From positions 1 through 61,581 of the forward strand of contig JAFGRT010000105.1 in NCBI GenBank assembly GCA_016935015.1: a stretch of 61,581 nt of DNA. The letters are read 5' to 3'. A program made the position numbers and the translations under genes. The notes under the pieces were generated by a model that searched no databases, was not told the DNA's origin, and worked only from the letters and a program-made list of their open reading frames with translations. Below are positions 6,357 through 19,930 of the stretch, in pieces. The DNA comes from Acidobacteriota bacterium (GTDB lineage Bacteria; Acidobacteriota; JAAYUB01). Numbering within the stretch: the first letter of the stretch is position 1; each line of letters starts with the position of its first letter.

Positions 6357-8678
6357 ATGCTCCTATCGAAGGATGTGAAAGTTTCCGCTCGGTTGTTACT
6401 GGTCGTCGCCTGTCTGCTCGTCGGCCTGTTCTGGCCGTTCCTGGCCGAAGATGCCTCCCTCTTCTATCGGGATTTGTCTTCCTTCCATTATCCCCTGTGG
6501 GCCGCCACCGCCGGGCAGGTCGCGCTGGGCCAGTTCCCATGGTGGAGCGAGGGAATCCATTTCGGCCAGTCCATTGCCGGCAATCCCAATTACCTGCTGT
6601 TCTATCCGCTGGCCTGGCTCCGCTTCCTCATGCCTCCGCTGATGGCGCTGCATGTATTCATGATGGCCCATTTTCCGTTGGCGGCGTTGGCCTTTTACTG
6701 CCTGGCCCGCCGCTGGAAACTCTCGGCGGCCGCCGCTTTCTGGGGCAGCTTGGCCTACGCGTTCAGCGGGGTTGCCTTTTCCCTGACCTGTGTGCTGAAT
6801 CTCGTCCCTTACCTGGTGCTCATTCCGGCTGTACTGGCAGCGCTGGAGTATTGCCTCGCCATCCGGTCCTGGCGTTCCGTTTCCTTCCTGGGCCTGCTGG
6901 CGGCGGTTACCATCACTGTTTTTGAGCCTTACATGGTGTTTGGATTGTTGCTGCTGGGACTGGTCTGCCTGGCCGGACGGACTCCCCCGGCCTGGAAGAC
7001 ATTCCTGCCGGCAGTCCTGTCGCGCCTTTTGCTGGCCGGGGTCCTGGCGGCCATGTTGGCGGCGCCCATGCTCGTGGAGGGCGTCCATCTCCTGCAGAAC
7101 GCCTCACGAACAGAGGACGCCTCGACCCCCCTGTACGCGCTCCACCCGCTGCTGAGCTTCGAATTCTGGATCCCCAATCCGGCGTCATTTTCCTTCGAGA
7201 ATCGTACGGGATACCGGGGCGGTGCTCTGTACGCGGGCCGGGACCCTTATCTCATCACATGTTTTGCCGGACTGGCCACGTTGTTCCTGGCCGGTGCGGG
7301 ACTCAGCTCTATTTCCGTCAGGGTCCGCTGGCTGGCTCTGGCGACGTTTTCTGTATTTGTGATGCTTTCGTGGGGGCAATTCGTTCCGGCGGTAGGCGGT
7401 TTGATGGAGCGTGTGCCCCTGCTGGAATGGGGACGCTACCCCCAGAAGTTCGCTGTTTTTGCGGTGGCGGTGCTGGTCATGGGCGCGGCCCGGGGTCTCG
7501 ACGTACTGGGACTCGGCGCGGCTAAGGCCCGACACCTGCGGCTGACCGCCGTCGTCGCCGGGTCGGCCGTTGGTGCCATGCTGTTGTTTTATGGACTGGA
7601 TGACCGCTTTTCCGTTGCGGCCATGTTTCCGTTCTCTATTTTGGCGGCTATTCTCCTGCCGGTGATGTTCTGGCTGAATCCCACCGGAAGATACCGGCAG
7701 TGGGGGTTGACCGCCGCCGGGATCCTGCTGCTGTTGGAACTGCTGACGGCCAACCGGTTCGCTATGCCGTTCGCCCCGTCATCGCTGATGAAGGATCCCG
7801 CGCCGGTGATCCGCCTCTTGCAGGCGCGGAATCCGGCCGGTGGACCCCTGCGTGTCGCCGTGGAGCCGCATCCGGTCTCCGTGAGTGGCGGCCGGACCGA
7901 CGCCTACTGGTACATGTCTTTTTTAAAGAACGCCGGTTACCCCTATTTCGGTTTGGTCTACGGGGTGGATTATGCCTTCGACCTGCTGCTGGACCGGACC
8001 CAGGCGCGTTGGCTGGGCGTGCTTCGGGAAGAATATTTCCGGTTCCCGCTGGAGGGCCGGATCCGTGTTTTGCAACGGTGCGGAATTCCGGTGATGATCT
8101 CACCGGCCCGCTACACACATCCGGATCTTCATCTGGCCGCTGTAATTCCCCTGGGCGGAGGAGAAACGACCAGCGTCTATGAGGTGTCCGGTGTCATGCC
8201 CCGCGCCGGTTTTGCCCGGAGGTGGACCATGACGCTCGATATACCCCGACCGTCCGGCATGGCCCGGCAGTGGGCCTCCACGGAAAAAAGCCCGGTGTGT
8301 ATCCATCCGGCGTCAGATCGTGATTATGTCGACGAATCGACTGCCGCCGGACAGACTGAAGAAGGGGCAGGGGAAGTGACCGCCCTCCAGTGGACCGCCG
8401 GCCGGGTGCGGCTGCAGACGGAAACGACGGGACCGGGTATGTTGGTGCTGCGTGAAGGATATTTTCCAGGCTGGCGGGTAACTGTCGACGGGACGGAAAA
8501 GAAACTACTCCGGGCCGATTGCTTTTTCATGGCCGTGGCGCTGCCGGCGGGCCGGCATGATGTGCGATTCTGGTATGAACCCGCCGGTCATCCGGCAACC
8601 CTCGTCCTGGCCGGACTGGCGGTTCTGCTGGCGCTGGTGACACTCTTTCGGCGGCCGCGACGGGATCACCCGGCCTAA
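6357..8678 (+). CDS. YfhO-like polytopic membrane protein (copy 1)
   Basis: This is a 773-residue integral membrane protein with roughly a dozen hydrophobic segments in the first 500 residues and a soluble C-terminal domain. The first extracytoplasmic loop has DASLFYRDLSSFHYPLW followed by GNPNYLLFYP, and the C-terminal domain ends with YFPGWRVTVDG and LPAGRHDVRFWYEP. This architecture is typical of YfhO-family membrane proteins, a GT-C-like family linked in Firmicutes to glycosylation of cell-envelope polymers. It resembles the gene at 9564 along its whole length, so the two are paralogues. The acidic residue pair in the first loop would be the catalytic candidate for a polyprenyl-phosphate-sugar-dependent transferase. 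The 3' end overlaps the convergent ispD by 4 bp. Substrate unknown. Confidence 0.75.
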   Translation: MLLSKDVKVSARLLLVVACLLVGLFWPFLAEDASLFYRDLSSFHYPLWAATAGQVALGQFPWWSEGIHFGQSIAGNPNYLLFYPLAWLRFLMPPLMALHVFMMAHFPLAALAFYCLARRWKLSAAAAFWGSLAYAFSGVAFSLTCVLNLVPYLVLIPAVLAALEYCLAIRSWRSVSFLGLLAAVTITVFEPYMVFGLLLLGLVCLAGRTPPAWKTFLPAVLSRLLLAGVLAAMLAAPMLVEGVHLLQNASRTEDASTPLYALHPLLSFEFWIPNPASFSFENRTGYRGGALYAGRDPYLITCFAGLATLFLAGAGLSSISVRVRWLALATFSVFVMLSWGQFVPAVGGLMERVPLLEWGRYPQKFAVFAVAVLVMGAARGLDVLGLGAAKARHLRLTAVVAGSAVGAMLLFYGLDDRFSVAAMFPFSILAAILLPVMFWLNPTGRYRQWGLTAAGILLLLELLTANRFAMPFAPSSLMKDPAPVIRLLQARNPAGGPLRVAVEPHPVSVSGGRTDAYWYMSFLKNAGYPYFGLVYGVDYAFDLLLDRTQARWLGVLREEYFRFPLEGRIRVLQRCGIPVMISPARYTHPDLHLAAVIPLGGGETTSVYEVSGVMPRAGFARRWTMTLDIPRPSGMARQWASTEKSPVCIHPASDRDYVDESTAAGQTEEGAGEVTALQWTAGRVRLQTETTGPGMLVLREGYFPGWRVTVDGTEKKLLRADCFFMAVALPAGRHDVRFWYEPAGHPATLVLAGLAVLLALVTLFRRPRRDHPA

Positions 8679-9385
8679 GGACCACCGGCGGGAGACTGGT
8701 GGTTCAGCAGGAATTCCGCCAGTGCAAAATCCCCGGGATGCGAAATCTTAAGGTTCATGCTATCGCCGGGGATGACCTGTACCGTTACACCCAGGTGCAG
8801 CAACAGCTGGGCGTCGTCGGAAACATTGGTCAGGCCGCGTTCCAGCGCCTGGCGGTGGGCGGAAAGAATGGTCCGGAAGTCAAAGCCCTGTGGTGTCTGG
8901 ATCCGCCGCAGAGTCTCGCGTGACGGGACCTGAGCCAACCGGCCTTCTGCCAGGATGGCGATGGTATCCGTGGTTTCAATGGCACAGGTGAACGCACGGG
9001 TCTGCATCAGCGCCCTCACGCAGCGGTGGAGCAGCTGCGGCGACAGCAGGCAGCGGGCAGCGTCGTGAATCAGTACGCCGCGGGGGGGATTCGGCAACCG
9101 GGCAAAGTGTTCCAGTACATGGTGCGAGGAGGCCTGCCGGGTCAGGCCGCCGGGGACAAGGTGGATGGATTGTCCCGGCCAGTGCCTGTCCAGCAGTTCG
9201 GCCAGATGCTCATGCCAGTCGGGATGGATGGCGACGGCAAGCGTCGAGAACGCGCCGGAATTCATGAACGGCCGGAGAGTCCGGCTGATCAGCGGCTCCC
9301 CTCGCAGATCCATAAACTGTTTGGGCAAATCGGACTGCATCCGCTGCCCGGTTCCTCCGGCCAGGATCGAAGCGGCGTTGGCCAT
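8675..9385 (-). CDS. ispD: 2-C-methyl-D-erythritol 4-phosphate cytidylyltransferase
   Basis: The 236-residue protein has the usual IspD length. It catalyses CTP + MEP to CDP-ME in the non-mevalonate isoprenoid pathway in the cytoplasm. Visible motifs are the nucleotide-binding ILAGGTGQRM and PKQF (about residues 7-26), LIHDAARCLL in place of the common VHDAARP, IQTPQGF, and SDDAQLL with NLKISHPGDF near the end. The ATG follows AAAGGAGG, which supports the start. No ispF is adjacent. It lies on the strand opposite the envelope-glycan genes, between the two yfhO-like paralogues, so it is probably regulated separately. A CDP-ribitol/TarI-type enzyme is a less likely alternative. Confidence 0.88.
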   Translation of the reverse strand: MANAASILAGGTGQRMQSDLPKQFMDLRGEPLISRTLRPFMNSGAFSTLAVAIHPDWHEHLAELLDRHWPGQSIHLVPGGLTRQASSHHVLEHFARLPNPPRGVLIHDAARCLLSPQLLHRCVRALMQTRAFTCAIETTDTIAILAEGRLAQVPSRETLRRIQTPQGFDFRTILSAHRQALERGLTNVSDDAQLLLHLGVTVQVIPGDSMNLKISHPGDFALAEFLLNHQSPAGGP

Positions 9386-9426
9386 GGGCGGCGACCTCCT
9401 TTCGGCGCGGATCCGTATTGCCGATC

Positions 9427-9432
9427 ATTATA
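9427..9432 (-). promoter_or_regulatory. Putative -10 element for ispD
   Basis: On the minus strand this is a perfect TATAAT, 42 bp upstream of the ispD ATG. The -35 region 17 bp further upstream is weak (TTCGCT). Confidence 0.45.
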
Positions 9433-9505
9433 GAGGGTTTGAACCGAAAAGCGAAGCCGTACCTGTTCGCCATCACGGCGTGATCGCCGAAACAACGGAA
9501 TATAC

Positions 9506-9534
9506 TGGAATGCCATCCGCTGACTTTCTATAAT
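9506..9534 (+). promoter_or_regulatory. Candidate promoter for the second yfhO-like operon
   Basis: TATAAT at 9529-9534 is a perfect -10 box. The hexamer 17 bp upstream, TGGAAT, is a weak -35. It lies about 30 bp before the start at 9564, divergent from the ispD promoter. Confidence 0.45.
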
Positions 9535-9563
9535 GGCTCTATCCGGACTTTCTGCGGGGAGGC

Positions 9564-11963
9564 ATGGCGCCGGTCGAAAAAACGCTTGAACCACGCTGGA
9601 TCCACGAATCACCCCGTCACATCATGGTCGGTCTGCACCTGCTTCTCGTGATGGCATTGCTGTTCTATTTTCGCGACGTGCTGTTCGGGCCATACAGTCT
9701 GTTTTATCGGGATATCTTCAATTTCCACTTTCCGCTGTGGGAAACCTCGGCACGGTTGTTCCACGCGCACGGCTTCTCGTGCTGGAATCCGCTGAATCAT
9801 TTCGGTCAGAACATGACGGGGAATCCCAACTATCTCATGTTCTACCCGCCGGCCTGGCTTCGTTTTGTCATGGATCCCCTTTCGGCGCTCAACTGGTTTA
9901 TCGTGCTCCATCTGGCGGCCGGCGGGATCACCTTCTCCTGGTTGGGTCGCCGCTGGGGATTATCCCCATGGCCGGCCGGCATGGTCGGGTTGGCCTATAG
10001 TTTCTGCGGCATTTCTTTCTCCATCTGCTGTATTCTGAACCTGGTCCCCTATCTGTGGCTGGCTCCCCTTTGCCTTTTATTGCTCGAAGAGCTTTTGCAA
10101 CGTCCCCGTTTCCATGCCCTGGCCGGACTGGCGCTGGGAGCCGCCTTGCTCGTCACCGTGTTTGAACCGGTGCTGATTTTCGGCCTGGCGATCATCATGG
10201 GACTGCGCTGCCTGATTCATCTGTGGTCTCCGACCCACCGCGCGGAATGGCGCCGACTGGTCGGCCGCCTGCTTCTGGCGTTCGCCCTGGCGCTGGTGGT
10301 GGCGGCGCCCGTTCTGGCCGAGGGGTGGCGATTATTCCAGGTGTCACCTCGCACCGAGGCCGGCGACATCCAGCAGGACTTGTATGCCCAGCCGCCGGCC
10401 CTGACACTGGGCTTTTGGGTGGCCAATCCGTTCGATGTCTCCTTCTCCATGCAAGAGGGGGTTCAGGGCGAGATCACCCGTCAGGGGCAGGTACCCTACT
10501 TCTTTTGTATGTTCATCGGGTTGATCAGTCTCGTGCTGATCCCCCAGGGGCTGGGCGGGTGCTACCGCCACCGGGTCTGGCTGTGGCTGGGAGGTGGATT
10601 GTTTTTCCTGGTCCTGGCCTGGGGAGAACATTGCCCCTGGGTGTATGAGATGGCCCGACATCTGCCGTTACTGTCCTGGGCCCGCTACATGCAGAAGCTG
10701 CTATTTTTCACGTCTTTTCTATGGATCATGGCCGCCGCTTTCGGACTGGAGGAGCTGGTGAGTCGCCCGGCAACCGGACGCTGGTCACGGATTCCGGCCC
10801 TTCTGGCGGGCATGGTGGGTGTTGCGGTGATTCTGGCCTGGGCCCACTGGGGAGCTGGTAGTCGGGTGAACGGTCTCTGGCCGGTTTCGCTGCTGGCGGC
10901 GGTCGGGGCGCTGTTTCTTCTGGCGTTGCGGCGATCCGGGCGTCAGAGCCGCGGGCTGGCCCTGGTGCTGGGTCTGGTCTGGTGCGCGGAGCTGGCCATG
11001 GGTAATGTTTTCGCCGTGCCCCAGGCGCCCCGGATCCTGTTTGCCGAACGGGTGCCGATCCTGCAAGCGGTGAATTGCACGCTGACCGAAGCGGCCCTGT
11101 TTCGGGTCACGGTGGAGAAAGAGCCGACCCATTACCGCTATTTCGGGCAGTCCGACAGCATCGTCTGGAAGTACAATATGTTGCGGATGGCCGGTTATCC
11201 CTACTCCGGCTTTTCGGCCGGAATCTCCTATGCCTTCAATTTCGTGGTGGACAAGATGGAGCCACGGCACTCCATGGTGTTGCGGCAATTGTACGCCGCC
11301 GCCAGTCCGGCGGATCGCCGGCATCTCATGCAGCGATGGGGCGTGGGTTTTTTGATCACCCATGGGGAGTATATGGATCCGCAATTGGAACTGCTGGGCC
11401 GTTTCGCGACCTATTCGGATACGCCGTACCGGCTGTATCGGGTTCGGGACGGCGTCGGCCGCTACTTTTTCACCACTCGGACAGAACGGCCGGCGCTGCC
11501 GGTCACCGATCTGGCCGAAGTCTTGCTGGCCGCGGCGCCCGGCACCATCCTGCTAGCGGAGGAGAGGGCCTCCTCTGCCGACACCGGACCTGCGACCGGA
11601 TCTTCGCCGACGGCCATCCGCATGCTCCATCACGCGCCGGACATGGTTGCTCTCGAAACGCAGAACGCCTTTCCGGGATGGGTGGTGCTCCAGGACACCT
11701 TCTACCCCGGCTGGGCCGCCCGGGTGGACGGGGAAGTCCAGGAAATCTTCCGGGCTGATTTTTTCTTCCGGGCCGTGCCGGTCCCGGCGGGGCGGCACCG
11801 GGTGGAATTCGTGTATGAACCGGCGGGGGGAAAGGCACTGTGGTTTTTTTCCGGCGGGGTGGCGTTCCTTTTGGGAGCCTTTGTGGTCGCTCTGTTCCTG
11901 CGGGCGAGTTGCCGCCGGGGGTCTCTGCTTTCATCCCGGAGAAAGGGTGATCTCGGATCATGA
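9564..11963 (+). CDS. YfhO-like polytopic membrane protein (copy 2)
   Basis: This is a 799-residue paralogue of the protein encoded at 6357. Shared landmarks include SLFYRDIFNFHFPLW, GNPNYLMFYPPAWLRF, VPYLWLAPL, a GYPYSGF segment, and a C-terminal TFYPGWAARVDG plus PAGRHRVEFVYEPAGG. About twelve membrane helices lie before residue 480, then a soluble domain and a last helix. The start at 9564 has GGGGAGG only one base upstream, an unusually tight spacing, but no better in-frame start is seen before residue 21. It overlaps the next gene by 4 bp (ATGA), so it heads a three-gene operon with a GT39-like and a TPR membrane protein. A role in glycosylating an envelope lipid or polymer is inferred. 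Confidence 0.75.
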   Translation: MAPVEKTLEPRWIHESPRHIMVGLHLLLVMALLFYFRDVLFGPYSLFYRDIFNFHFPLWETSARLFHAHGFSCWNPLNHFGQNMTGNPNYLMFYPPAWLRFVMDPLSALNWFIVLHLAAGGITFSWLGRRWGLSPWPAGMVGLAYSFCGISFSICCILNLVPYLWLAPLCLLLLEELLQRPRFHALAGLALGAALLVTVFEPVLIFGLAIIMGLRCLIHLWSPTHRAEWRRLVGRLLLAFALALVVAAPVLAEGWRLFQVSPRTEAGDIQQDLYAQPPALTLGFWVANPFDVSFSMQEGVQGEITRQGQVPYFFCMFIGLISLVLIPQGLGGCYRHRVWLWLGGGLFFLVLAWGEHCPWVYEMARHLPLLSWARYMQKLLFFTSFLWIMAAAFGLEELVSRPATGRWSRIPALLAGMVGVAVILAWAHWGAGSRVNGLWPVSLLAAVGALFLLALRRSGRQSRGLALVLGLVWCAELAMGNVFAVPQAPRILFAERVPILQAVNCTLTEAALFRVTVEKEPTHYRYFGQSDSIVWKYNMLRMAGYPYSGFSAGISYAFNFVVDKMEPRHSMVLRQLYAAASPADRRHLMQRWGVGFLITHGEYMDPQLELLGRFATYSDTPYRLYRVRDGVGRYFFTTRTERPALPVTDLAEVLLAAAPGTILLAEERASSADTGPATGSSPTAIRMLHHAPDMVALETQNAFPGWVVLQDTFYPGWAARVDGEVQEIFRADFFFRAVPVPAGRHRVEFVYEPAGGKALWFFSGGVAFLLGAFVVALFLRASCRRGSLLSSRRKGDLGS

Positions 11964-13534
11964 GCGCCGCCACGCTGCCAGCCAAAAAAGGGACGGGGCA
12001 GGGGAATCTTCTGCGCTGGTTGATCCTAGGCGCCGGCGCCGCCGGGGCCGGTGTCCGTCTGGCGGCCTATCTGGCCAACCGCTCTTTCTGGTGCGACGAA
12101 TCCATGTTGGCCTTCAATGTCATGGACCGCGCCTGGAGCGGCCTGCTGGAACCGCTCAGCCTCAGCCAGGCGGCCCCTTTCGGCTTCCTCGTAGTGACCA
12201 AGGTATTCTGTTCCGTTCTGGGCTACAGTGAGGGGGCCTTCCGTTTCCTGCCTCTCATCGGAGGATTGGTTTCCTTGCCTTTGATGTACCTGTTGGGTAA
12301 AAAAGCGGCCGGCCCGTGGACCGGACTGCTGGGGCTGATCCTGCTGGGCGTAAACGGGCCGGCGGTTTTTCATGCCACTGAATTCAAACCCTATTCGACG
12401 GACCTGATGTTTACCTTGTCTGTCACCCTGGTGTTTCTGGAATGGTTCCGCCGGGAGCTGGATCACCGTTACCTTTGGATACTGGGGCCGGTGACGGCGG
12501 CGGCTGTCTGGATATCCTTTCCCAGTATTTTTGTCATCACCGGGGCCGCCGCGGCGGTCCTCCTTGTCGCGGGGCGGCGTGGACAGTGGAGAAATCTGGC
12601 GACCGGCGGGCTGGTCCTCCTCTGGACCGCGGTTCATTTCGGACTGCACTCCGGGCTAGTTCTCCCCCGGACGGTGAACAACGCGTATCTGCAGCATTAT
12701 TGGGAAGGGGCGTTCCTGCCGCTGGATTCCCTCGCCGTCTTGGCCGGCTGGCTTTGGCGGGCCGGCGGCGACCTGATGACGGAAAATCTCCTTTTTTACT
12801 GGCCGCTGATTCCAGCACTGCTGGCCGCCGTCGGCGGCTGGTGGTGTATTCGCCGCTGTCCCCTACTGGCTCTGCTGATTGGCGTTACCTGCCTGTTGAC
12901 CCTGGGGGCCTCGGCCCTGCAGCTCTATCCCTTCGGCGGTTATGGCGGCCGTACCATACATTTTGTGATCCCCCTGATCCTGCTGCTGATCGCCCGGGCC
13001 GGGACGTGGGCCGCTGAGTTCAACGGGCCATGGCTGATGAGAGCCCTTGGCGTCGGTGTCCTGCTGGCTGCCCTCTTAGGGGGGCCTTTGGCGCAGTTGC
13101 CGGCATTCATTACGGCGCCGCCGGGTTTTACTGAGGAGCTCCGTCCGGTGCTCGAGTATGTCACAGCCCAGGCTCGGCCGGGCGATACGGTCTATTTTTA
13201 TTGGAAGACCCACTTTCAGATGGCGTATTATCACCACTGGTATGATTTTCGCCATGTGCAGGTGGTCCGGGGGGTGCCGTTGCGTGATCCGGAGCGGGAC
13301 ACCGCCGCTTTCCGGAGACAACTGGACGAACTGCGCGTTTACGACCGTGTCTGGCTGATTTTCTCCAATTGGGGACGGGCTGACCATCCGGAACAGGATA
13401 TGGTGGCGGATTACCTGAACCGCCATGGACGTGTGTTAAAACGAAAGTTAGAAACCGGCGCCGCCGCTATGTTGTTTGCCTTCGAGGTGAACCCCCGAAC
13501 GCCGGACATGCCACCACGAGGAAGTCATGAATGA
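11960..13534 (+). CDS. GT39-like membrane glycosyltransferase
   Basis: The 524-residue polytopic protein starts with one helix followed by FWCDESMLAFN; an Asp-Glu pair in the first periplasmic loop is characteristic of the GT39/ArnT/PMT superfamily, which transfers sugars from polyprenyl-phosphate donors. HATEFKPYSTDLMF after the third helix also fits this family. About ten helices fill residues 15-390, and the last 130 residues form a soluble domain. The start codon overlaps the upstream yfhO-like stop and the stop overlaps the next start by 8 bp, showing translational coupling. Acceptor and donor are unknown. Confidence 0.75.
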   Translation: MSAATLPAKKGTGQGNLLRWLILGAGAAGAGVRLAAYLANRSFWCDESMLAFNVMDRAWSGLLEPLSLSQAAPFGFLVVTKVFCSVLGYSEGAFRFLPLIGGLVSLPLMYLLGKKAAGPWTGLLGLILLGVNGPAVFHATEFKPYSTDLMFTLSVTLVFLEWFRRELDHRYLWILGPVTAAAVWISFPSIFVITGAAAAVLLVAGRRGQWRNLATGGLVLLWTAVHFGLHSGLVLPRTVNNAYLQHYWEGAFLPLDSLAVLAGWLWRAGGDLMTENLLFYWPLIPALLAAVGGWWCIRRCPLLALLIGVTCLLTLGASALQLYPFGGYGGRTIHFVIPLILLLIARAGTWAAEFNGPWLMRALGVGVLLAALLGGPLAQLPAFITAPPGFTEELRPVLEYVTAQARPGDTVYFYWKTHFQMAYYHHWYDFRHVQVVRGVPLRDPERDTAAFRRQLDELRVYDRVWLIFSNWGRADHPEQDMVADYLNRHGRVLKRKLETGAAAMLFAFEVNPRTPDMPPRGSHE

Positions 13535-15677
13535 ACACCCGCGTCACTGGCGCCTGGCCGGTATCGGATTGTTCGTGATCCTGTCCTCTCTGACGGTCGT
13601 TGTTTACCGGCCGGCCCTGGATACACCGTTCCTGTATGATGATACCTATCTGATTCTGGAAAACCAGGGGATCCGGGATCCCGCCAATGTGTCGTATTTC
13701 GTTACTTACAACCGCCCGTTGGTGGCCGTCAGCTATGCCATGGATTTTGCCCTGCACGGACTCGATCCCAGGGGCTACCGGCTGCTCCAGCTCTTGCTGC
13801 ACCTGTTGAACGGCGGTTTGCTGGCATTGCTGGCGCAGCGTTTATATATCTTTTTCCACGACCCAAAGGCGTCCTCGCCGGCCTGGCTGCCGGTGATCGC
13901 CGCGCTGGGGGCGGGACTGTTCCTGTTGCACCCTGTCCATTCCCTGACTGTGATCCTGGTGTCGGCCCGTTCCGGTATGATGTGCACTTTTTTTTACCTG
14001 GCCGGGCTGCTGCTGTTTATCCGCTGGATGGAGCGGGAATTCCGGGGCCGTCTGTGGCTGGCTGTGGCCGGCCTCTATCTGGCGGCCGGCCTGTGCAAGG
14101 AAATCGCCGTCACGTTTCCGGTGATGGCCGCCCTGATGTTGTTCTACGTGCGACGAAAATCCGCAGTGGCTGGCTGGCTGCGACCCTCCCTGAAGCTTTT
14201 CGGTTTGCTGGCCCTCATCACCGGCGGCCTGGTGCTGCACGCCATAGGGTTTCAGTATGGTCCGTCCGTCGGGGAGGGTGTTCTGCCCTTCACCCGGTGG
14301 GAATACGCCCTGACCCAGGCCCAGGTCGTAGTGTCGTATCTGGTGATGATCATTGTTCCGTTTCCGGGCTGGCTGTCCATCGATCATGACATCGCGGTGA
14401 TCCGCACGCCGCTGGATCCCCTCTTTTTGGCGGCCGGGCTGACAATGCTGGCCGTATTCGTCGGCGGTTACTTCCTATGGCGGCGCCGACGGATCGGAAC
14501 TCTTTTCGGGCTCGTTTTCTTTTTCGTTGCCCTGGCACCCACGTCCAGCCTGATGCCCATCGCCGATCTGATGATGGATTACCGTCTCTATCTGCCGTCG
14601 GCCGGGTTTGTTTTGGCGGTGGTGTTCGTTCTGGGCCGGTGCAGGGAAGGGATTGATCTGTCATCCTTCAGGAGGAAGTACGGGCCTTTCGTGCTGGCCG
14701 TATGCGTCGCCGGCTATCTGACTCTGCTGGGTGTCTGGCTGCACGAGCGGGTGACGGTTTTCGAGTCGCCGGTGAGCGTCTGGGAGGATGCCGTCCAGAA
14801 GGCGCCCGGCAAGGTCCGACCGCGTTACAACCTGTCGTACGCCTACAGCCGGCAGAACCGGCTGGCTGAGGCGCAGGCGCAAATCGAGCGAGCCCTGGAA
14901 CTGGAGCCGCGCAGCACCATCCTCCACGTTGCCGCCGGCGATATTTTGCGCGAGCAGGGCCGCTACGATGCCGCCATCGCCGCCTATCGCCGCGCCCTGG
15001 ATCTGGAACCCGATGCATTGCCCGTTCTTTGCAGGGTGACGTATCTGCTGGTGCAAAAGGGGGAATTGGCCCTGGCGGCCCAAAACCTGGAGCGCATTCC
15101 CCGCCGGGGAAGCGGCAAGGAGTGCCGGCTGACAGTGGCCATCTATCTGGTGGAAACCGGGCAGCTGGAGAAGGCCCTGGTCATGTATCGGCAGGTCGTG
15201 GCCGATTATCCGGTCGAAAAAAGCGCCTGGCTGAACATGGGCAACATCCTTCTGCGCCGGGGGGGTGCTGACGAAGCCGAGACATGCTACCGGACGGCAC
15301 TGAGCATCGATCCCCTCTATGCCCGGGCGGAGCTGGCCCTGGGCCTGCTGTACCGGCAGCAGGGCCGCATGGCGGACGCCTGGCAACATCTGCAGGCGGC
15401 GAGCCATAAGAATCCCTACCTGGCCGAGGCCGATTATGAGCGGGCCAACTGGCTGGCCACCACCCGCCGCTACGAAGAAGCCGAACAGGTGTATGAGACC
15501 TATGTGCAGAAAAGGACTGACCGGGCGGAAGCATGGTACCGGCTGGCCCTGGTGCGCCAGGAAGTGGGAAAAACGGCGGCGGCAGCCGAAGCGCTGCGGC
15601 GCGCACTGGAGTTGGAGCCGGACGACCCATCCTATCTGGAATTATGGCAACGGGTGACTGTTCTGCCGGCGGAGTAA
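13527..15677 (+). CDS. TMTC-like membrane protein with C-terminal TPR repeats
   Basis: The protein has 716 residues. The N-terminal 410 residues are polytopic, with FLYDDTYLI in the first loop and CKEIAVTFPVMA further on, as in TMTC/DUF1736-type O-mannosyltransferase-like proteins. From about residue 425 to the end there are seven or so tetratricopeptide repeats, recognisable by pieces such as PRYNLSYAYSRQNRLAEAQ, LDLEPDALPVL, WLNMGNILLRRGGADEAE and WYRLALVRQEVGKTAAA. The TPR part is expected to be periplasmic and to bind protein partners or acceptors. It is the last gene of the three-gene glycan operon; a rho-independent-type hairpin follows its stop. Confidence 0.8.
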   Translation: MNEHPRHWRLAGIGLFVILSSLTVVVYRPALDTPFLYDDTYLILENQGIRDPANVSYFVTYNRPLVAVSYAMDFALHGLDPRGYRLLQLLLHLLNGGLLALLAQRLYIFFHDPKASSPAWLPVIAALGAGLFLLHPVHSLTVILVSARSGMMCTFFYLAGLLLFIRWMEREFRGRLWLAVAGLYLAAGLCKEIAVTFPVMAALMLFYVRRKSAVAGWLRPSLKLFGLLALITGGLVLHAIGFQYGPSVGEGVLPFTRWEYALTQAQVVVSYLVMIIVPFPGWLSIDHDIAVIRTPLDPLFLAAGLTMLAVFVGGYFLWRRRRIGTLFGLVFFFVALAPTSSLMPIADLMMDYRLYLPSAGFVLAVVFVLGRCREGIDLSSFRRKYGPFVLAVCVAGYLTLLGVWLHERVTVFESPVSVWEDAVQKAPGKVRPRYNLSYAYSRQNRLAEAQAQIERALELEPRSTILHVAAGDILREQGRYDAAIAAYRRALDLEPDALPVLCRVTYLLVQKGELALAAQNLERIPRRGSGKECRLTVAIYLVETGQLEKALVMYRQVVADYPVEKSAWLNMGNILLRRGGADEAETCYRTALSIDPLYARAELALGLLYRQQGRMADAWQHLQAASHKNPYLAEADYERANWLATTRRYEEAEQVYETYVQKRTDRAEAWYRLALVRQEVGKTAAAAEALRRALELEPDDPSYLELWQRVTVLPAE

Positions 15678-15682
15678 GCAAC

Positions 15683-15707
15683 ACAGGGGGCACCCGGCGC
15701 CCCCTGT
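15683..15707. terminator. Bidirectional hairpin between the TPR gene and pilin 1
   Basis: ACAGGGGGC (15683-15691) pairs perfectly with GCCCCCTGT (15699-15707) around a 7-nt loop. It lies between two convergent genes and could end both transcripts, though T-runs are short on either side. Confidence 0.6.
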
Positions 15708-15731
15708 GATTCTTCTCATGAATGGCGAGGT

Positions 15732-16136
15732 TTACTGGACGGCGTTGCCGGCATTATTCCGGATGGCACCATCGGTCATGATGTAGAACCGCCGGTTGGT
15801 GTTGTCGCCATCATCCGGGGTGGCGGTGAAGGCGAAGCCGCCGCTGCTGCCCGTGCCGGAGAAGGTGTAGCCGTCGAACGCCGCCGTTCCGGTGGAAAAG
15901 CGGTCATCGAGGTTGCCCTGGGTGTACAGGTTGGCCAGGGTGCCGTAGGCGGTGTTGGTGCTCTTGGCAATATAGGCCATCTCGGCCGAGGCAATGTTGC
16001 GCAGGGTGGCCTGGGCGGCCTTCTCTTCGGAAACCTTTTTGGATTCCAGCAGGCTGGGCACCGCGATGATGACGATGATGCCGATGATCACCACCACAAT
16101 CAACAACTCGATGAGGGAGAAACCTGATTTGTTCAT
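15732..16136 (-). CDS. pilA: Type IV major pilin, copy 1
   Basis: The 134-residue prepilin has a short leader ending in Gly5, then FSLIELLIVVVIIGIIVIIAVP, the class III signal with Glu at mature position 5. The mature domain has no visible cysteine pair. It is almost identical to the next gene upstream (pilin 2), differing at about six positions, mainly in the leader. The leader (MNKSG) would be cut by PilD prepilin peptidase, which is not in this window. AGGAGG precedes the ATG. A separate, weaker sigma-70-like promoter and an 11-bp inverted repeat lie upstream, while a terminator isolates it from pilin 2. Confidence 0.93.
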   Translation of the reverse strand: MNKSGFSLIELLIVVVIIGIIVIIAVPSLLESKKVSEEKAAQATLRNIASAEMAYIAKSTNTAYGTLANLYTQGNLDDRFSTGTAAFDGYTFSGTGSSGGFAFTATPDDGDNTNRRFYIMTDGAIRNNAGNAVQ

Positions 16137-16168
16137 AAAAGCCTCCTTGTATCAGGGTTTTACTGTAT

Positions 16169-16207
16169 ATCGTCGGATCACTCCGCAGGGCGGTCAGATC
16201 CGACGAT
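16169..16207. repeat. 11-bp perfect inverted repeat in the pilin 1 leader
   Basis: ATCGTCGGATC (16169-16179) and GATCCGACGAT (16197-16207) are perfect inverted repeats around a 17-nt centre that itself can form CCGC/GCGG. It starts about 33 bp upstream of the pilin 1 start codon, so it would be in the mRNA leader. No T-run follows, so it is more likely an operator or a leader structure than a terminator. Confidence 0.6.
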
Positions 16208-16227
16208 GTTCAGATGGCATTGTTTGG

Positions 16228-16256
16228 TTTTGACACGACAAACAGTCAGCAGTCAA
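16228..16256 (-). promoter_or_regulatory. Weak candidate sigma-70 promoter for pilin 1
   Basis: On the minus strand TTGACT (16251-16256) is followed after 17 bp by TCAAAA (16228-16233). The -35 is good, the -10 poor. No sigma-54 -24/-12 pair was found upstream of pilin 1. Confidence 0.3.
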
Positions 16257-16317
16257 CTGCCGGGTCAATCAGAAATCAGATCAGCCGCCACATGTTCGTG
16301 GTTGTCCACGAATCGAC

Positions 16318-16349
16318 AAAAAAAAAGCGGGGTAGACCCCGCCTTTTTT
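16318..16349 (-). terminator. Rho-independent terminator of pilin 2
   Basis: GCGGGG (16327-16332) pairs with CCCCGC (16337-16342) around a TAGA loop. Runs of A on one side and T on the other extend the stem and give a U-tract for the minus-strand transcript. It lies just after the pilin 2 stop. Confidence 0.85.
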
Positions 16350-16361
16350 AATGAAATAAGT

Positions 16362-16766
16362 TTACTGGACCGCGTTGCCGGCGTTGTTGCGGATGGCGCC
16401 GTCGGTCATGATGTAGAAGCGCCGGTTGGTGTTATCGCCATCATCCGGGGTGGCGGTAAAGGAAAAACCGCCGCTGCTGCCCGTACCGGAGAAGGTATAG
16501 CCGTCGAATGTCGCCGTTCCGGTGGAAAAGCGGTCATCGAGGTTGCCCTGGGTGTACATGTTGGCCAGGGTGCCATAGGCCGTGTTGATGCTTTTGGCAA
16601 TGTAGGCCATCTCGGCCGAGGCAATGTTGCGCAGGGTGGCCTGAGCGGCTTTCTCTTCGGAAACCTTCTTGGATTCCAGCAGACTTGGCACTGCGATGAT
16701 CACGATGATGCCGATGATCACGACAACGATCAGCAACTCAATCAATGAAAAACCTTTTCTGTTCAT
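16362..16766 (-). CDS. pilA: Type IV major pilin, copy 2 (sigma-54 controlled)
   Basis: The 134-residue prepilin has leader MNRKG and then the hydrophobic FSLIELLIVVVIIGIIVIIAVP helix; cleavage is expected after Gly5. The ATG at 16766 follows GGAGG by 5 nt, so the upstream in-frame ATG at 16778 is rejected. The mature sequence matches pilin 1 nearly completely (Ile/Thr, Met/Leu, Thr/Ala and Ser/Ala exchanges). It lies directly downstream of pilR with a clear sigma-54 promoter and upstream TGTC sites between them. It ends in a strong terminator. It is the likely structural subunit of twitching/adhesion pili. Confidence 0.95.
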   Translation of the reverse strand: MNRKGFSLIELLIVVVIIGIIVIIAVPSLLESKKVSEEKAAQATLRNIASAEMAYIAKSINTAYGTLANMYTQGNLDDRFSTGTATFDGYTFSGTGSSGGFSFTATPDDGDNTNRRFYIMTDGAIRNNAGNAVQ

Positions 16767-16800
16767 CCGAACCTCCATTCAAATATTCTGATATATCTAT

Positions 16801-16816
16801 AGCAAACCAAATGCCA
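16801..16816 (-). promoter_or_regulatory. Sigma-54 (RpoN) promoter of pilin 2
   Basis: On the minus strand TGGCATTTGGTTTGCT matches TGGCAC-N5-TTGCW at every invariant position, with GG and GC in the correct -24/-12 register. It lies 35-50 bp upstream of the pilin 2 ATG and next to pilR, a sigma-54 activator gene. Confidence 0.9.
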
Positions 16817-16896
16817 TTCCGGTACATTCACTGAATCCTTTTCTTTTCTCTCAGTTATCATTCGCGACAAAAATAAGTGTACCTCAAATATCAAAA

Positions 16897-16918
16897 TTTG
16901 TCACCAAAAATTGACAAA
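16897..16918. promoter_or_regulatory. Candidate PilR upstream activating site
   Basis: TTTGTCA (16897-16903) and TGACAAA (16912-16918) form a perfect inverted pair with an 8-bp spacer, about 80-100 bp upstream of the sigma-54 site. PilR of Pseudomonas binds TGTC-containing sites. A further TGTC half site is seen on the minus strand near 16865. Confidence 0.55.
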
Positions 16919-16931
16919 TCTCGGTACCCCG

Positions 16932-18299
16932 TCAGTGAATTCCCAGTTTTTGCATGCGATGGCGCAGGCTGCGGTAGCTGACGTTCAACAGCCGGGCCGC
17001 CTCGATCTGCACACCGCCACATCGGGCCAGCGCCTGACGGATGATCCGCCGTTCCATTTCCTGAAGGTATGGCTCCAGGTCCAACCCATCTTCGCCGATG
17101 GTAACCGGCGCGACTTCCGCCGAGGGACCCGGTGCTTCGGCCGGGCCGTGGCGAAGCTCCATGAAATTTTCTTCCCGGATTTTGTCGGTGGTTTCCAGGG
17201 CCACCGCCCGCTCGATGGTGTTTTCCAGTTCCCGGACATTGCCCGGCCAGGAGTAGCCGTTCAGGACGGCCATGGCCGCCGGCGTCAGGCCGCTGATGGA
17301 TTTGCCCAGGCCGGTGGTGTACTTTTTTACGAAGTGACTGACCAGTTCGGGGATATCCTCAGCCCGTTCCCGCAGCGGCGGCAGATGAATGGGAATCACC
17401 GCCAACCGGTAGTAGAGGTCTTCGCGGAACCGGTCCTCCTTGATCAGCTGGAGCAGGTTCTGATTGGTGGCGGCGATGATCCGGACATCCACTTCGATTT
17501 CTTCCACCCCGCCCAGGCGACGAATTCGCCGGCTCTGGATGGCCCGCAGCAGCTTGACCTGCATGGACGGTGACGTTTCCGCAATTTCATCCAGAAAAAG
17601 AGTGCCTTTGTGGGCAGCCTCGAACAGGCCCCGCTTGGGGGTGGTGGCGCCGGTGAACGCGCCCTTCTGATAACCGAAAAGCTCACTCTCCAACAGGGTT
17701 TCGGGGAAGGCGCCGCAGTTGATGGAAACGAACTCGTTTTCCTTGCGGGGACTGGATTCATGAATGATGCGGGCGATCAGCTCCTTACCCGTGCCGCTCT
17801 CCCCGGTCAGGAGAATGGTGCTGTTGGTGGGGGCGATGACCCCGATGGTCTTGTAAATCTTGATCATGACCGGCGATTTGCCGATGATCCGCGGCGGCTT
17901 GGGTGTGTCAGCGGCCGGGCTGATGCGTTTACCGCTCTGGCGGATCTTCTCGGCCGCCTGATGCACGATCCGTTTCAGCTCATCCACGTCGAAGGGTTTG
18001 GTGATGTAATCATATGCACCGTACTTGAGGGCGTCGATGGCGCTGTCCGACGAGGCATAGGCGGTGATGAGGATGAAGGCGCTCTCCGGCGAGCGCTGCT
18101 GCACGATTTGCAGCAAATCGAGACCGCTGCCATCTTCCATGCGCAGATCGGAGATGATTACTTCGAAAGGCTGTGTTTCCAGCAGGCTGGCGGCTTCGGT
18201 GATTCCGGCGGCGGTGGCCACCGTGAAACCATCCTCCCGGAAAACATATTCCAGCAGCTCGCGCATGGACTGTTCGTCATCAACGATTAATACTCTCAT
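16932..18299 (-). CDS. pilR: Sigma-54-dependent response regulator PilR
   Basis: The 455-residue NtrC-type activator has an N-terminal receiver domain with acidic pocket Asp7/Asp8, phospho-acceptor Asp51 in ISDLRM and Lys101 in KPF. The AAA+ domain has Walker A GESGTGKE (166-173), the sigma-54 contact loop GAFTGA (213-218) and Walker B TLFLDEIA. The C-terminal Fis-type helix-turn-helix includes EAARLLNVSYRSLRHRM. It overlaps pilS by 4 bp and is followed by pilin 2 with a sigma-54 promoter, so it is assigned as PilR rather than a nitrogen regulator. It is activated by phosphorylation from the adjacent membrane kinase. Confidence 0.95.
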   Translation of the reverse strand: MRVLIVDDEQSMRELLEYVFREDGFTVATAAGITEAASLLETQPFEVIISDLRMEDGSGLDLLQIVQQRSPESAFILITAYASSDSAIDALKYGAYDYITKPFDVDELKRIVHQAAEKIRQSGKRISPAADTPKPPRIIGKSPVMIKIYKTIGVIAPTNSTILLTGESGTGKELIARIIHESSPRKENEFVSINCGAFPETLLESELFGYQKGAFTGATTPKRGLFEAAHKGTLFLDEIAETSPSMQVKLLRAIQSRRIRRLGGVEEIEVDVRIIAATNQNLLQLIKEDRFREDLYYRLAVIPIHLPPLRERAEDIPELVSHFVKKYTTGLGKSISGLTPAAMAVLNGYSWPGNVRELENTIERAVALETTDKIREENFMELRHGPAEAPGPSAEVAPVTIGEDGLDLEPYLQEMERRIIRQALARCGGVQIEAARLLNVSYRSLRHRMQKLGIH

Positions 18300-19930
18300 G
18301 ACAGTGGCAGTCCCTCCTGATGTTTTGGCAGATAGATGCGAAACATGGTGCCGCTCTGGTCATCGCTGTCCACCTCGATGCTGCCCTGATGGTCGGCGAT
18401 GATCCGGTAGACGATGGCCAGGCCCAGCCCCAGGCCGCCTTTGAAACGGCTGTAAAAAGGCTCGAACAGGTTCTGGATTTCCTGTTTGCTCATGCCGTGA
18501 CCCTGATCCGTGAATTCCACGATGAAATGACGGATGTCATCCAGGCAACGGATACCGATGGTTCCGCCGGTGGGCATGGCTTTTTTGGCGTTGGAGGACA
18601 GGTTCCAGAAAACCTGTCTGAGCTGATCCGGATCGCCGTAGACCACCATGGACTCCACCCGGAAATCGGTGTCGATCCGGTATTTGCCCGCGGCATCGGG
18701 TTCGTTCGCCACCAGGGTCATGGTTTCGGTGATGACCTGCCGCAGGTCGACGGATTGCGGCTGAAATTTGCCGGACCCGGCAAATTCGAGAAAATTGGAT
18801 ACAATGCGGTTCAGGCGCCGTGATTCGCGCAGGACAATATCCATCAGGTGCTGGCCGCTGACGGATGGGAGCTGTTTCTGCAACACCTGGATGGAACCCA
18901 TCATCGAGGCCAGGGGATTGCGGATTTCATGGGCCAGGGCGGCCGACAGATTCCCGATGGCCACCATTTTCTTCTGGGTGTTGATTTCATCCTGCAGGCG
19001 CTTGATTTCCGTCAAATCCTGAAAAATGAAAATGTAGCCGGCCACGTCCGCACCGCGCATCAGCAAAGGGGATACGGAAAGCCCGATGTATTTTCCGGCA
19101 TTGTCGGCGGAAAATTCGATCCACTTTTCCGTACGCAGGGTGTTTTCGGCCGAACGGGTAAACCGCTTCAGCTCCTCCTGTTCGGCAAGATTGACGGTGA
19201 ACAGCGCCAGGGCATCCCGTCCGATGGCGCCTTCCTCATGGATTTCAAGTATTTCCAGTCCCATCCGGTTGATCTTGACGATCCGGAAATCAATGTCCGT
19301 GGTCAGCAACCCGCTGCGCAAGCTGGCCAGGATGTATTCGTTGTAATCCTTCAGATCCTGAATTCGGTCCGACTGCTGGGCCATCAGTTGCCGCGTGCGG
19401 CGCAGCCGCTCGGCCAGAAATCCCGTCAGCAAACCCACCAGGCTGTATCCCAGGAGATAGATTTCGATGGAGAATAGAAATGATTTCAGGGATTCCATGT
19501 CCGAAGGGGTCGTACTGAACAGAAAATAGTACACGAAATGGATGGTAACGATGCAGGCGCAGGCCAGGACCGTCACCACCAGAACACCGACCAGTTCGAG
19601 AAACAGGCTGGAATAAGTGATGATGAAGATATACAGGAGGAAAAACGGATTGCCCGTGACACCGGTGGAAAAAACGATGAAGGTGGCCAGGCTCAGGTCG
19701 AATGCCAGGTGAATGCAGACGATCAGCTTCCGGTGCGTGGCCAGCCAGCGGTTCAAAAACAATGACAGCAGACTGAACGCGAGGATGACGAGCAGCAGGT
19801 AGTGAAAAGAAAGAACCAGTTCGTACTGGTGTTTGAAAAAATTGGTCCAGTGGAGGGAAAAGATGAGAACCGAACAGAGTACGATGCGTCCCGCGATGAC
19901 GAGATTAAGGCGGTTTCGGATTTCATCCAT
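18296..19930 (-). CDS. pilS: Membrane sensor histidine kinase PilS
   Basis: The 544-residue protein has six hydrophobic segments within residues 10-175, as in PilS of Pseudomonas and Myxococcus, then a PAS domain (about 195-310), a HisKA domain with phospho-acceptor His334 in ALAHEIRNPL, and a HATPase domain with a G-box GLGLGLAIV near the C-terminus. The HEIRNPL sequence marks the NtrB-like kinases that partner sigma-54 activators. It is translationally coupled to pilR by a 4-bp overlap and follows pilC. PilS is known to sense pilin in the inner membrane in other bacteria; the same is likely here. Confidence 0.93.
   Translation of the reverse strand: MDEIRNRLNLVIAGRIVLCSVLIFSLHWTNFFKHQYELVLSFHYLLLVILAFSLLSLFLNRWLATHRKLIVCIHLAFDLSLATFIVFSTGVTGNPFFLLYIFIITYSSLFLELVGVLVVTVLACACIVTIHFVYYFLFSTTPSDMESLKSFLFSIEIYLLGYSLVGLLTGFLAERLRRTRQLMAQQSDRIQDLKDYNEYILASLRSGLLTTDIDFRIVKINRMGLEILEIHEEGAIGRDALALFTVNLAEQEELKRFTRSAENTLRTEKWIEFSADNAGKYIGLSVSPLLMRGADVAGYIFIFQDLTEIKRLQDEINTQKKMVAIGNLSAALAHEIRNPLASMMGSIQVLQKQLPSVSGQHLMDIVLRESRRLNRIVSNFLEFAGSGKFQPQSVDLRQVITETMTLVANEPDAAGKYRIDTDFRVESMVVYGDPDQLRQVFWNLSSNAKKAMPTGGTIGIRCLDDIRHFIVEFTDQGHGMSKQEIQNLFEPFYSRFKGGLGLGLAIVYRIIADHQGSIEVDSDDQSGTMFRIYLPKHQEGLPLS

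Follow-up and report, generated by a model that had tools for sequence, protein, structure and literature searches.

The two pilin genes considered here belong to a known kind of pair, with counterparts in other bacteria such as pilA1/pilA2 of Xylella and of Kingella. The two Xylella genes, which are major-pilin paralogues, lie close to each other on the chromosome; Pseudomonas aeruginosa has a single pilA gene. Silent pilin cassettes, of the pilS type, are 5′-truncated, promoterless and of variable sequence. As far as the accessible parts of the cited papers go, pilA1 of Xylella fastidiosa has a characterised sigma-54 promoter, probably acting with PilSR, and is the gene with the strongest decrease when rpoN is mutated (PMC3224663); deletion of pilA1 gives more twitching, deletion of pilA2 less, and the double deletion none (PMC9956873). 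The pilA1 and pilA2 genes of Kingella kingae, 50% identical, form one operon with one promoter, in which PilA1 is the major pilin while piliation does not require PilA2 (PMC12607826). Stigmatella aurantiaca carries tandem pilA genes, 70% similar, in its T4aP cluster, and the consulted part of that paper leaves open whether one or both are required (PMC6060248); the same source cites Pseudomonas stutzeri, with two pilA genes, 55% identical, the second of which antagonises transformation. The pilA1/pilA2 genes of Legionella are another two-pilin locus (PMC13170364). Concerning control, pilA of P. aeruginosa is under PilS-PilR and sigma-54, PilS interacts with PilA, and the pilin autoregulates (PMC6058289), while pilE of Neisseria is RpoN-controlled in commensals and RpoD-controlled in pathogens (PMC6528607).

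The present locus lies in a window of 61.6 kb, the whole stretch of DNA that was analyzed, and holds two nearly identical pilin genes, hereafter copy 1 and copy 2, beside pilS and pilR (Table 1). Judging from the sequence, the control of this duplicated pilin has probably diverged.

The two genes and their products

Both genes are complete, each with 134 codons plus a stop, and lie downstream of the adjoining pilS and pilR; rpoN is also encoded in the genome. The listed open reading frame of copy 2 begins four codons upstream, and the ATG at 16766 was chosen for its better-placed GGAGG. Between the copies, 41 of the 405 nucleotides are different, as are 6 of the 134 residues (from copy 1 to copy 2: K3R, S4K, T60I, L70M, A86T and A102S). 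So, the original prediction of a near-identical pair with about six differences in 134 residues holds, with two full-length tandem genes and exactly that number.

Table 1. Features of the pilin locus, with positions in the window.
Feature	Position	Strand	Basis or remark
Copy 1, type IV pilin gene	15732..16136	-	134 aa; without sigma-54 element
Copy 2, type IV pilin gene	16362..16766	-	134 aa; 96% identity with copy 1
Ribosome-binding site AGGAGG of copy 1	16142..16147	-	Sequence
Hairpin in copy 1 leader, 24-nt arms, 79% complementary	16163..16213	-	27–77 nt before ATG
Terminator hairpin between the copies, T runs both ways	16320..16349		Hairpin, terminator and folding analyses
Terminator-like hairpin downstream of both copy 1 and the convergent TPR gene	15682..15708		Hairpin and terminator scans
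Sigma-54 promoter element of copy 2, TGGCATTTGGTTTGCT	16801..16816	-	10/11 match; also at the 3 pilR-linked pilins found in relatives
Candidate PilR-type activator dyad TTGTC-N10-GACAA above copy 2	16898..16917		Putative function; motif chosen post hoc
Like dyad TTGTC-N8-GACAA in copy 1 leader	16302..16319		Putative function; motif chosen post hoc
pilR, NtrC-type response regulator	16932..18299	-	Response_reg, Sigma54_activat, HTH_8
pilS, histidine kinase with PilS-like transmembrane domain	18296..19930	-	6TM_PilS, HisKA, HATPase_c

The two proteins carry the hallmarks of type IV(a) pilins, namely a short class III leader with a G^F cleavage motif at its end, a Glu as fifth residue of the predicted mature protein and a hydrophobic N-terminal helix, and both matched Pfam N_methyl above its cut-off. 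With the predicted cleavage after Gly5, the differences at residues 3 and 4 would be lost and those at precursor positions 60, 70, 86 and 102 would alone remain in the mature pilins (4 of 129 residues), their first 54 residues being identical. By their predicted products, both genes encode practically one mature pilin. The AlphaFold model of copy 2 (pLDDT 90) has a helix at 8–56 and a small beta sheet, and places the four variable positions in the loop that follows the long helix, in a short helix and in two of the strands. A comparison of this model with the PDB gave no match at E 0.001 or better, the best one being P. aeruginosa PilE 4noa (E 0.09, probability 0.99).

A scan against genome contigs gave a single weak match, with 39% identity over residues 5–55. 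A third pilin gene, with 43% identity, is located on another contig of the same genome (C189; L003, 1501–1860). It adjoins a membrane protein that, by eye, looks like the one next to the EF-G-linked pilins in relatives, and it has no sigma-54 match, whereas those counterparts do have one. On the other side of the pair, convergent to it, positions 6357–15677 (+) encode three large membrane proteins plus a further one whose C-terminal part carries TPR repeats. By eye these appear glycosyltransferase-like and might glycosylate pilin; a profile search of the TPR gene gave TPR families.

Control regions of the two copies

The sigma-54 element of copy 2 includes the GG and GC and lies 34 nt 5′ of the ATG. 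When the window was scanned with GG and GC required, two matches of 10 letters out of 11 were obtained, one of them being this element. The class was sampled with six genomes including the source, and a clear pilR orthologue (56–64% identity) with an adjacent pilin was found in three of the five others (G002, G004 and G005). Each of these has a single pilin gene at that locus, with a sigma-54 element in all three cases (9, 10 and 10 of 11). In the other two (G001 and G003) the best PilR matches had at most 44% identity, and since these are draft genomes the pilR-pilin locus may simply be missing from them. Another pilin, beside an EF-G-like gene (assigned by eye) in G001, G002 and G003, has a sigma-54 element too, with 10/11 in each. 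The best sigma-70-like match upstream of copy 2 (9/12) was at chance level, as 58% of shuffles equalled it. Copy 2 has both the -24/-12 element and the adjacent PilSR of a PilR/sigma-54-regulated pilin gene.

Copy 1 lacks the -24/-12 element: in the 225 nt upstream of it, the best sigma-54 match with GG and GC reached 5/11 and the best of any kind 7/11. The best sigma-70 match (8/12 letters) was equalled by 88% of 100 shuffles. Between the copies there is a terminator hairpin with a GC-rich stem and an A/T run on either side, nine Ts being on the gene strand, where the folded stem reaches into the T run. A consensus terminator scan of 15650–17000 gave four sites, compared to 1.6 (sd 1.5) for shuffled sequence; this hairpin was among them on the + strand only. 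The leader of copy 1 behind the terminator is about 184 nt long and strongly folded: compared to shuffles, the intergenic region gave z -5.6, partly due to the terminator, and its last 140 nt alone z -3.5, versus z -0.6 for the region upstream of copy 2. The sigma-54 element of copy 2 lies 35–50 nt before its ATG, a distance that at copy 1 falls within the leader hairpin. A mobile or repeated element was considered for this hairpin and rejected, as its pattern occurs at one place of the genome and the leader has only short, weak matches elsewhere. A riboswitch at the locus was also rejected: Rfam gave eight hits, all below gathering scores, six of them on or beside the inter-copy terminator.

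Concerning the original prediction, a sigma-54 promoter on copy 2 only (10/11, versus at most 5/11 for a GG and GC core at copy 1) and a terminator between the copies were both borne out, while the weak sigma-70-like candidate proposed for copy 1 did not rise above chance. It had also been suggested that the cell could make pilin with or without PilR. The differing control stands in silico, with sigma-54 at copy 2 only and the terminator; the PilR-free expression of copy 1 is so far hypothetical, as its leader has no promoter above chance and contains a dyad of the kind described below.

Separate control of the two copies seems likely from these upstream regions. The explanation we prefer, with moderate confidence, is a duplication of the major type IV pilin gene beside pilSR in which copy 2 keeps the ancestral PilS-PilR/sigma-54 control and copy 1 is separately fed, the role of the pair being one of dosage and timing. 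PilS-PilR would drive copy 2 at its sigma-54 promoter, and copy 1, placed after the terminator, would have lost, or never carried, the sigma-54 core promoter. From the presence of the terminator and the absence of a core promoter we propose that copy 1 is transcribed separately from its own structured leader of about 180 nt, or else by leakage through the terminator.

The same data bear on a simpler arrangement, in which copy 1 is fed by read-through from the sigma-54 promoter of copy 2 past a leaky terminator, both genes forming one PilR regulon with unequal output. No independent promoter of copy 1 rose above chance, the genes are only 225 nt apart, and pilA1 and pilA2 of Kingella are co-transcribed from one promoter according to the accessible part of that report (PMC12607826), which makes read-through a real alternative. 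However, the terminator has a GC-rich stem with nine Ts on the gene strand, and the long folded leader would be needless in such an operon. We regard read-through as possible, but lean against it.

Less probable, and in our opinion doubtful, is that copy 1 is also under PilR, through a dyad of its own and a promoter so degenerate that a consensus scan would miss it. TTGTC-N6..11-GACAA occurs at just two places in the window, one above each copy (shuffle mean 0.29; 5 of 100 shuffles reached two), and the copy 1 leader contains six half-sites versus a shuffle mean of 2.0 (P 0.008), denser than in the rest of the window. Similar half-sites are found in relatives above their sigma-54 element. PilR sites in P. 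aeruginosa, described as a NifA-like TGT-N11-AGA with nearby GTCT elements in the consulted part of PMC6058289, are similar in style to these dyads. The presence of a dyad in its leader means that copy 1 could be tied to PilR after all. On the other hand, the motif was picked post hoc and is only a lead; over the 4.75 Mb genome the dyad and its reversed control were both counted 28 times, so that the motif itself is not enriched, and the leader has no GG and GC core above 5/11.

Divergence and origin of the copies

The differences between the copies are mostly synonymous (32 codons versus 6 amino-acid changes), with dN 0.027 and dS 0.45 by NG86, and 0.023 and 0.92 by YN00, which indicates that the proteins are conserved under constraint. 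By our own arithmetic, the roughly 300 non-synonymous sites should have gathered tens of replacements if copy 1 were unconstrained, and six were seen. Similarity ends at the ends of the coding regions, no homology being detectable between the upstream regions or flanks of the two copies. Four relatives (L009, L010, L011 and L013) were used to polarise the residue changes. K3 and L70, as in copy 1, are found in all four, and T60, also as in copy 1, in three (the fourth has S), while K4, as in copy 2, is found in three (the fourth has R). Among the four polarisable differences, then, the ancestral residue is that of copy 1 in three cases and that of copy 2 in the remaining one; positions 86 and 102 are not polarisable. 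The pair probably arose by a lineage-specific tandem duplication beside pilSR, import of an allele from a relative being a less favoured alternative.

Codon usage was considered as proof of copy 1 expression and dropped. Of the 32 synonymous differences, 22 have the codon commoner in ribosomal genes on the side of copy 1 (binomial p 0.05, Wilcoxon 0.08), but only 18 favour copy 1 by log-odds against background (Wilcoxon 0.53), the codon usage of ribosomal genes hardly differing from that of other genes in this genome. The codon adaptation index was 0.80 for copy 1 and 0.71 for copy 2, versus 0.55–0.74 for the reference, a set of 13 ribosomal and EF-G genes that were chosen by eye and each scored against the others. 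The index largely follows GC3 (GC3-matched z 1.8 and 2.3 for the two copies).

The original prediction had also offered copy 1 as a reservoir for recombination, that is, a silent donor to copy 2 like the pilS cassettes of Neisseria. The tandem arrangement, the 90% nucleotide identity and the arrest of similarity at the coding ends, which gene conversion could cause, would agree with it. However, copy 1 is no silent cassette in its make-up, being full-length, with a start codon, its own ribosome-binding site, the full N-terminal helix and low dN. The few residue changes, four of them in the mature protein, mean that almost no protein variety is stored, and the tests for conversion tracts or uneven spread gave no clear significance (p 0.18 for the longest identical run and p 0.05 for the window variance). 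This, together with the low dN and the greater number of ancestral residues in copy 1, makes a silent reservoir very improbable, and that part of the prediction is disfavoured. An assembly artefact joining two strain variants could be imagined in a draft of 237 contigs with 2.2% estimated contamination, but it is hardly credible, as the flanks of the copies are unrelated, the leader of copy 1 occurs in full only once in the genome, the pair is located within a contig of 61.6 kb, and pilin genes in tandem are frequent in the phylum.

Tandem pilin arrays and comparison with known systems

A search of 396 genomes of the phylum gave 80 with a pilin match at 1e-12; at most ten candidates per genome were scored, so the arrays found are a lower bound. 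The sample comprised 21 other groups of neighbouring matches within about 1.7 kb, picked by eye, plus the single-gene loci of three relatives. The array analysis covered 20 of these groups and the present window; L076 (G375) was left out for its garbled gene calls, and a pilin-like open reading frame 570 nt upstream was excluded in L096. Leading genes were defined as lying at least 600 nt from the previous one, and a sigma-54 match as at least 9/11 within 180 nt upstream.

A sigma-54 element was found at 10 of 23 leading genes, but at only one of the 25 later ones (Fisher p 0.0015); shuffling would give about 0.3 per set. The difference persisted without the present window (9/22 versus 1/24, p 0.0036) and when only later genes with at least 100 nt upstream were considered (1/20, p 0.0098). 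The ten leading genes with the element represent six families by label, although one family (f21) supplies many arrays, so that the genomes in these statistics are not independent. The present locus, with two pilin genes in a row and sigma-54 at the leading one, is such an array. A terminator-like hairpin precedes 15 of 25 later genes (a raw count, without chance control). Those later genes that follow after a very short gap (e.g., 43 nt in L096) are probably co-transcribed. The complete layout of a sigma-54 gene, a terminator and a gene without sigma-54 was otherwise found only in L084 and L093, with near layouts in L077, where the element lies 269 nt upstream, and in L082, where only the third gene is preceded by a terminator. 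Close pairs occur elsewhere (L092, 98%; L085, 93%; L083, 90%; L096, 86%), with a sigma-54 match only at the leading gene of L096 (9/11).

Two other observations concern these arrays. The pairs in L092 (G104), L085 (G242) and L083 (G196) have mutually similar upstream regions, unlike the present pair. In L082 and L084, strong leader folds (z -3.6 and -3.8) follow a terminator before the third pilin gene, as at copy 1. A structured leader as a general mark of later copies was unsupported (mean z -1.09 for 18 later versus -0.70 for 26 first genes, p 0.50). A search of the literature, made largely without the phylum name, gave no paper on tandem pilins in the phylum.

As leading genes with sigma-54 recur in the arrays of several families, pilin duplication may commonly lead to this arrangement. 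A broader generalization, which we regard as rather unlikely, would be that duplications in this phylum repeatedly keep sigma-54/PilR on the leading copy and leave later copies, often after a terminator, without it, the present pair being a two-input supply in which PilS-PilR is quenched by the later copy, here copy 1, through the identical transmembrane helix. Under the preferred explanation of a duplication with separately fed copies, a common pilin pool would be supplied by a gene that answers to demand and by another that has a different input. If PilS senses membrane pilin as in P. aeruginosa, the product of copy 1 should also damp copy 2, given that the first 54 mature residues are identical. 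The pair is a clean natural case in which the promoters have diverged and the proteins hardly at all. It would allow one to test directly if selection acts on pilin dosage or timing alone, and if PilS senses pilin whichever gene made it.

Compared to the described systems, as far as the consulted parts of the respective papers tell, the present pair is like pilA1/pilA2 of X. fastidiosa in consisting of pilin paralogues, with a sigma-54 promoter described for pilA1 there and predicted for copy 2 here (PMC3224663, PMC9956873). The predicted control of copy 2 resembles the PilS-PilR/sigma-54 control of P. aeruginosa, with two pilin genes here. The Kingella pair is 50% identical and co-transcribed, whereas the present one is 96% identical with a terminator between the genes. 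The tandem duplication of S. aurantiaca lies inside a pil cluster, as here, with 70% similarity, and P. stutzeri also has two related pilins per genome, only 55% identical. Finally, the sigma-54/sigma-70 split of Neisseria pilE runs between species, while the divergence described here would run between two copies in one genome.
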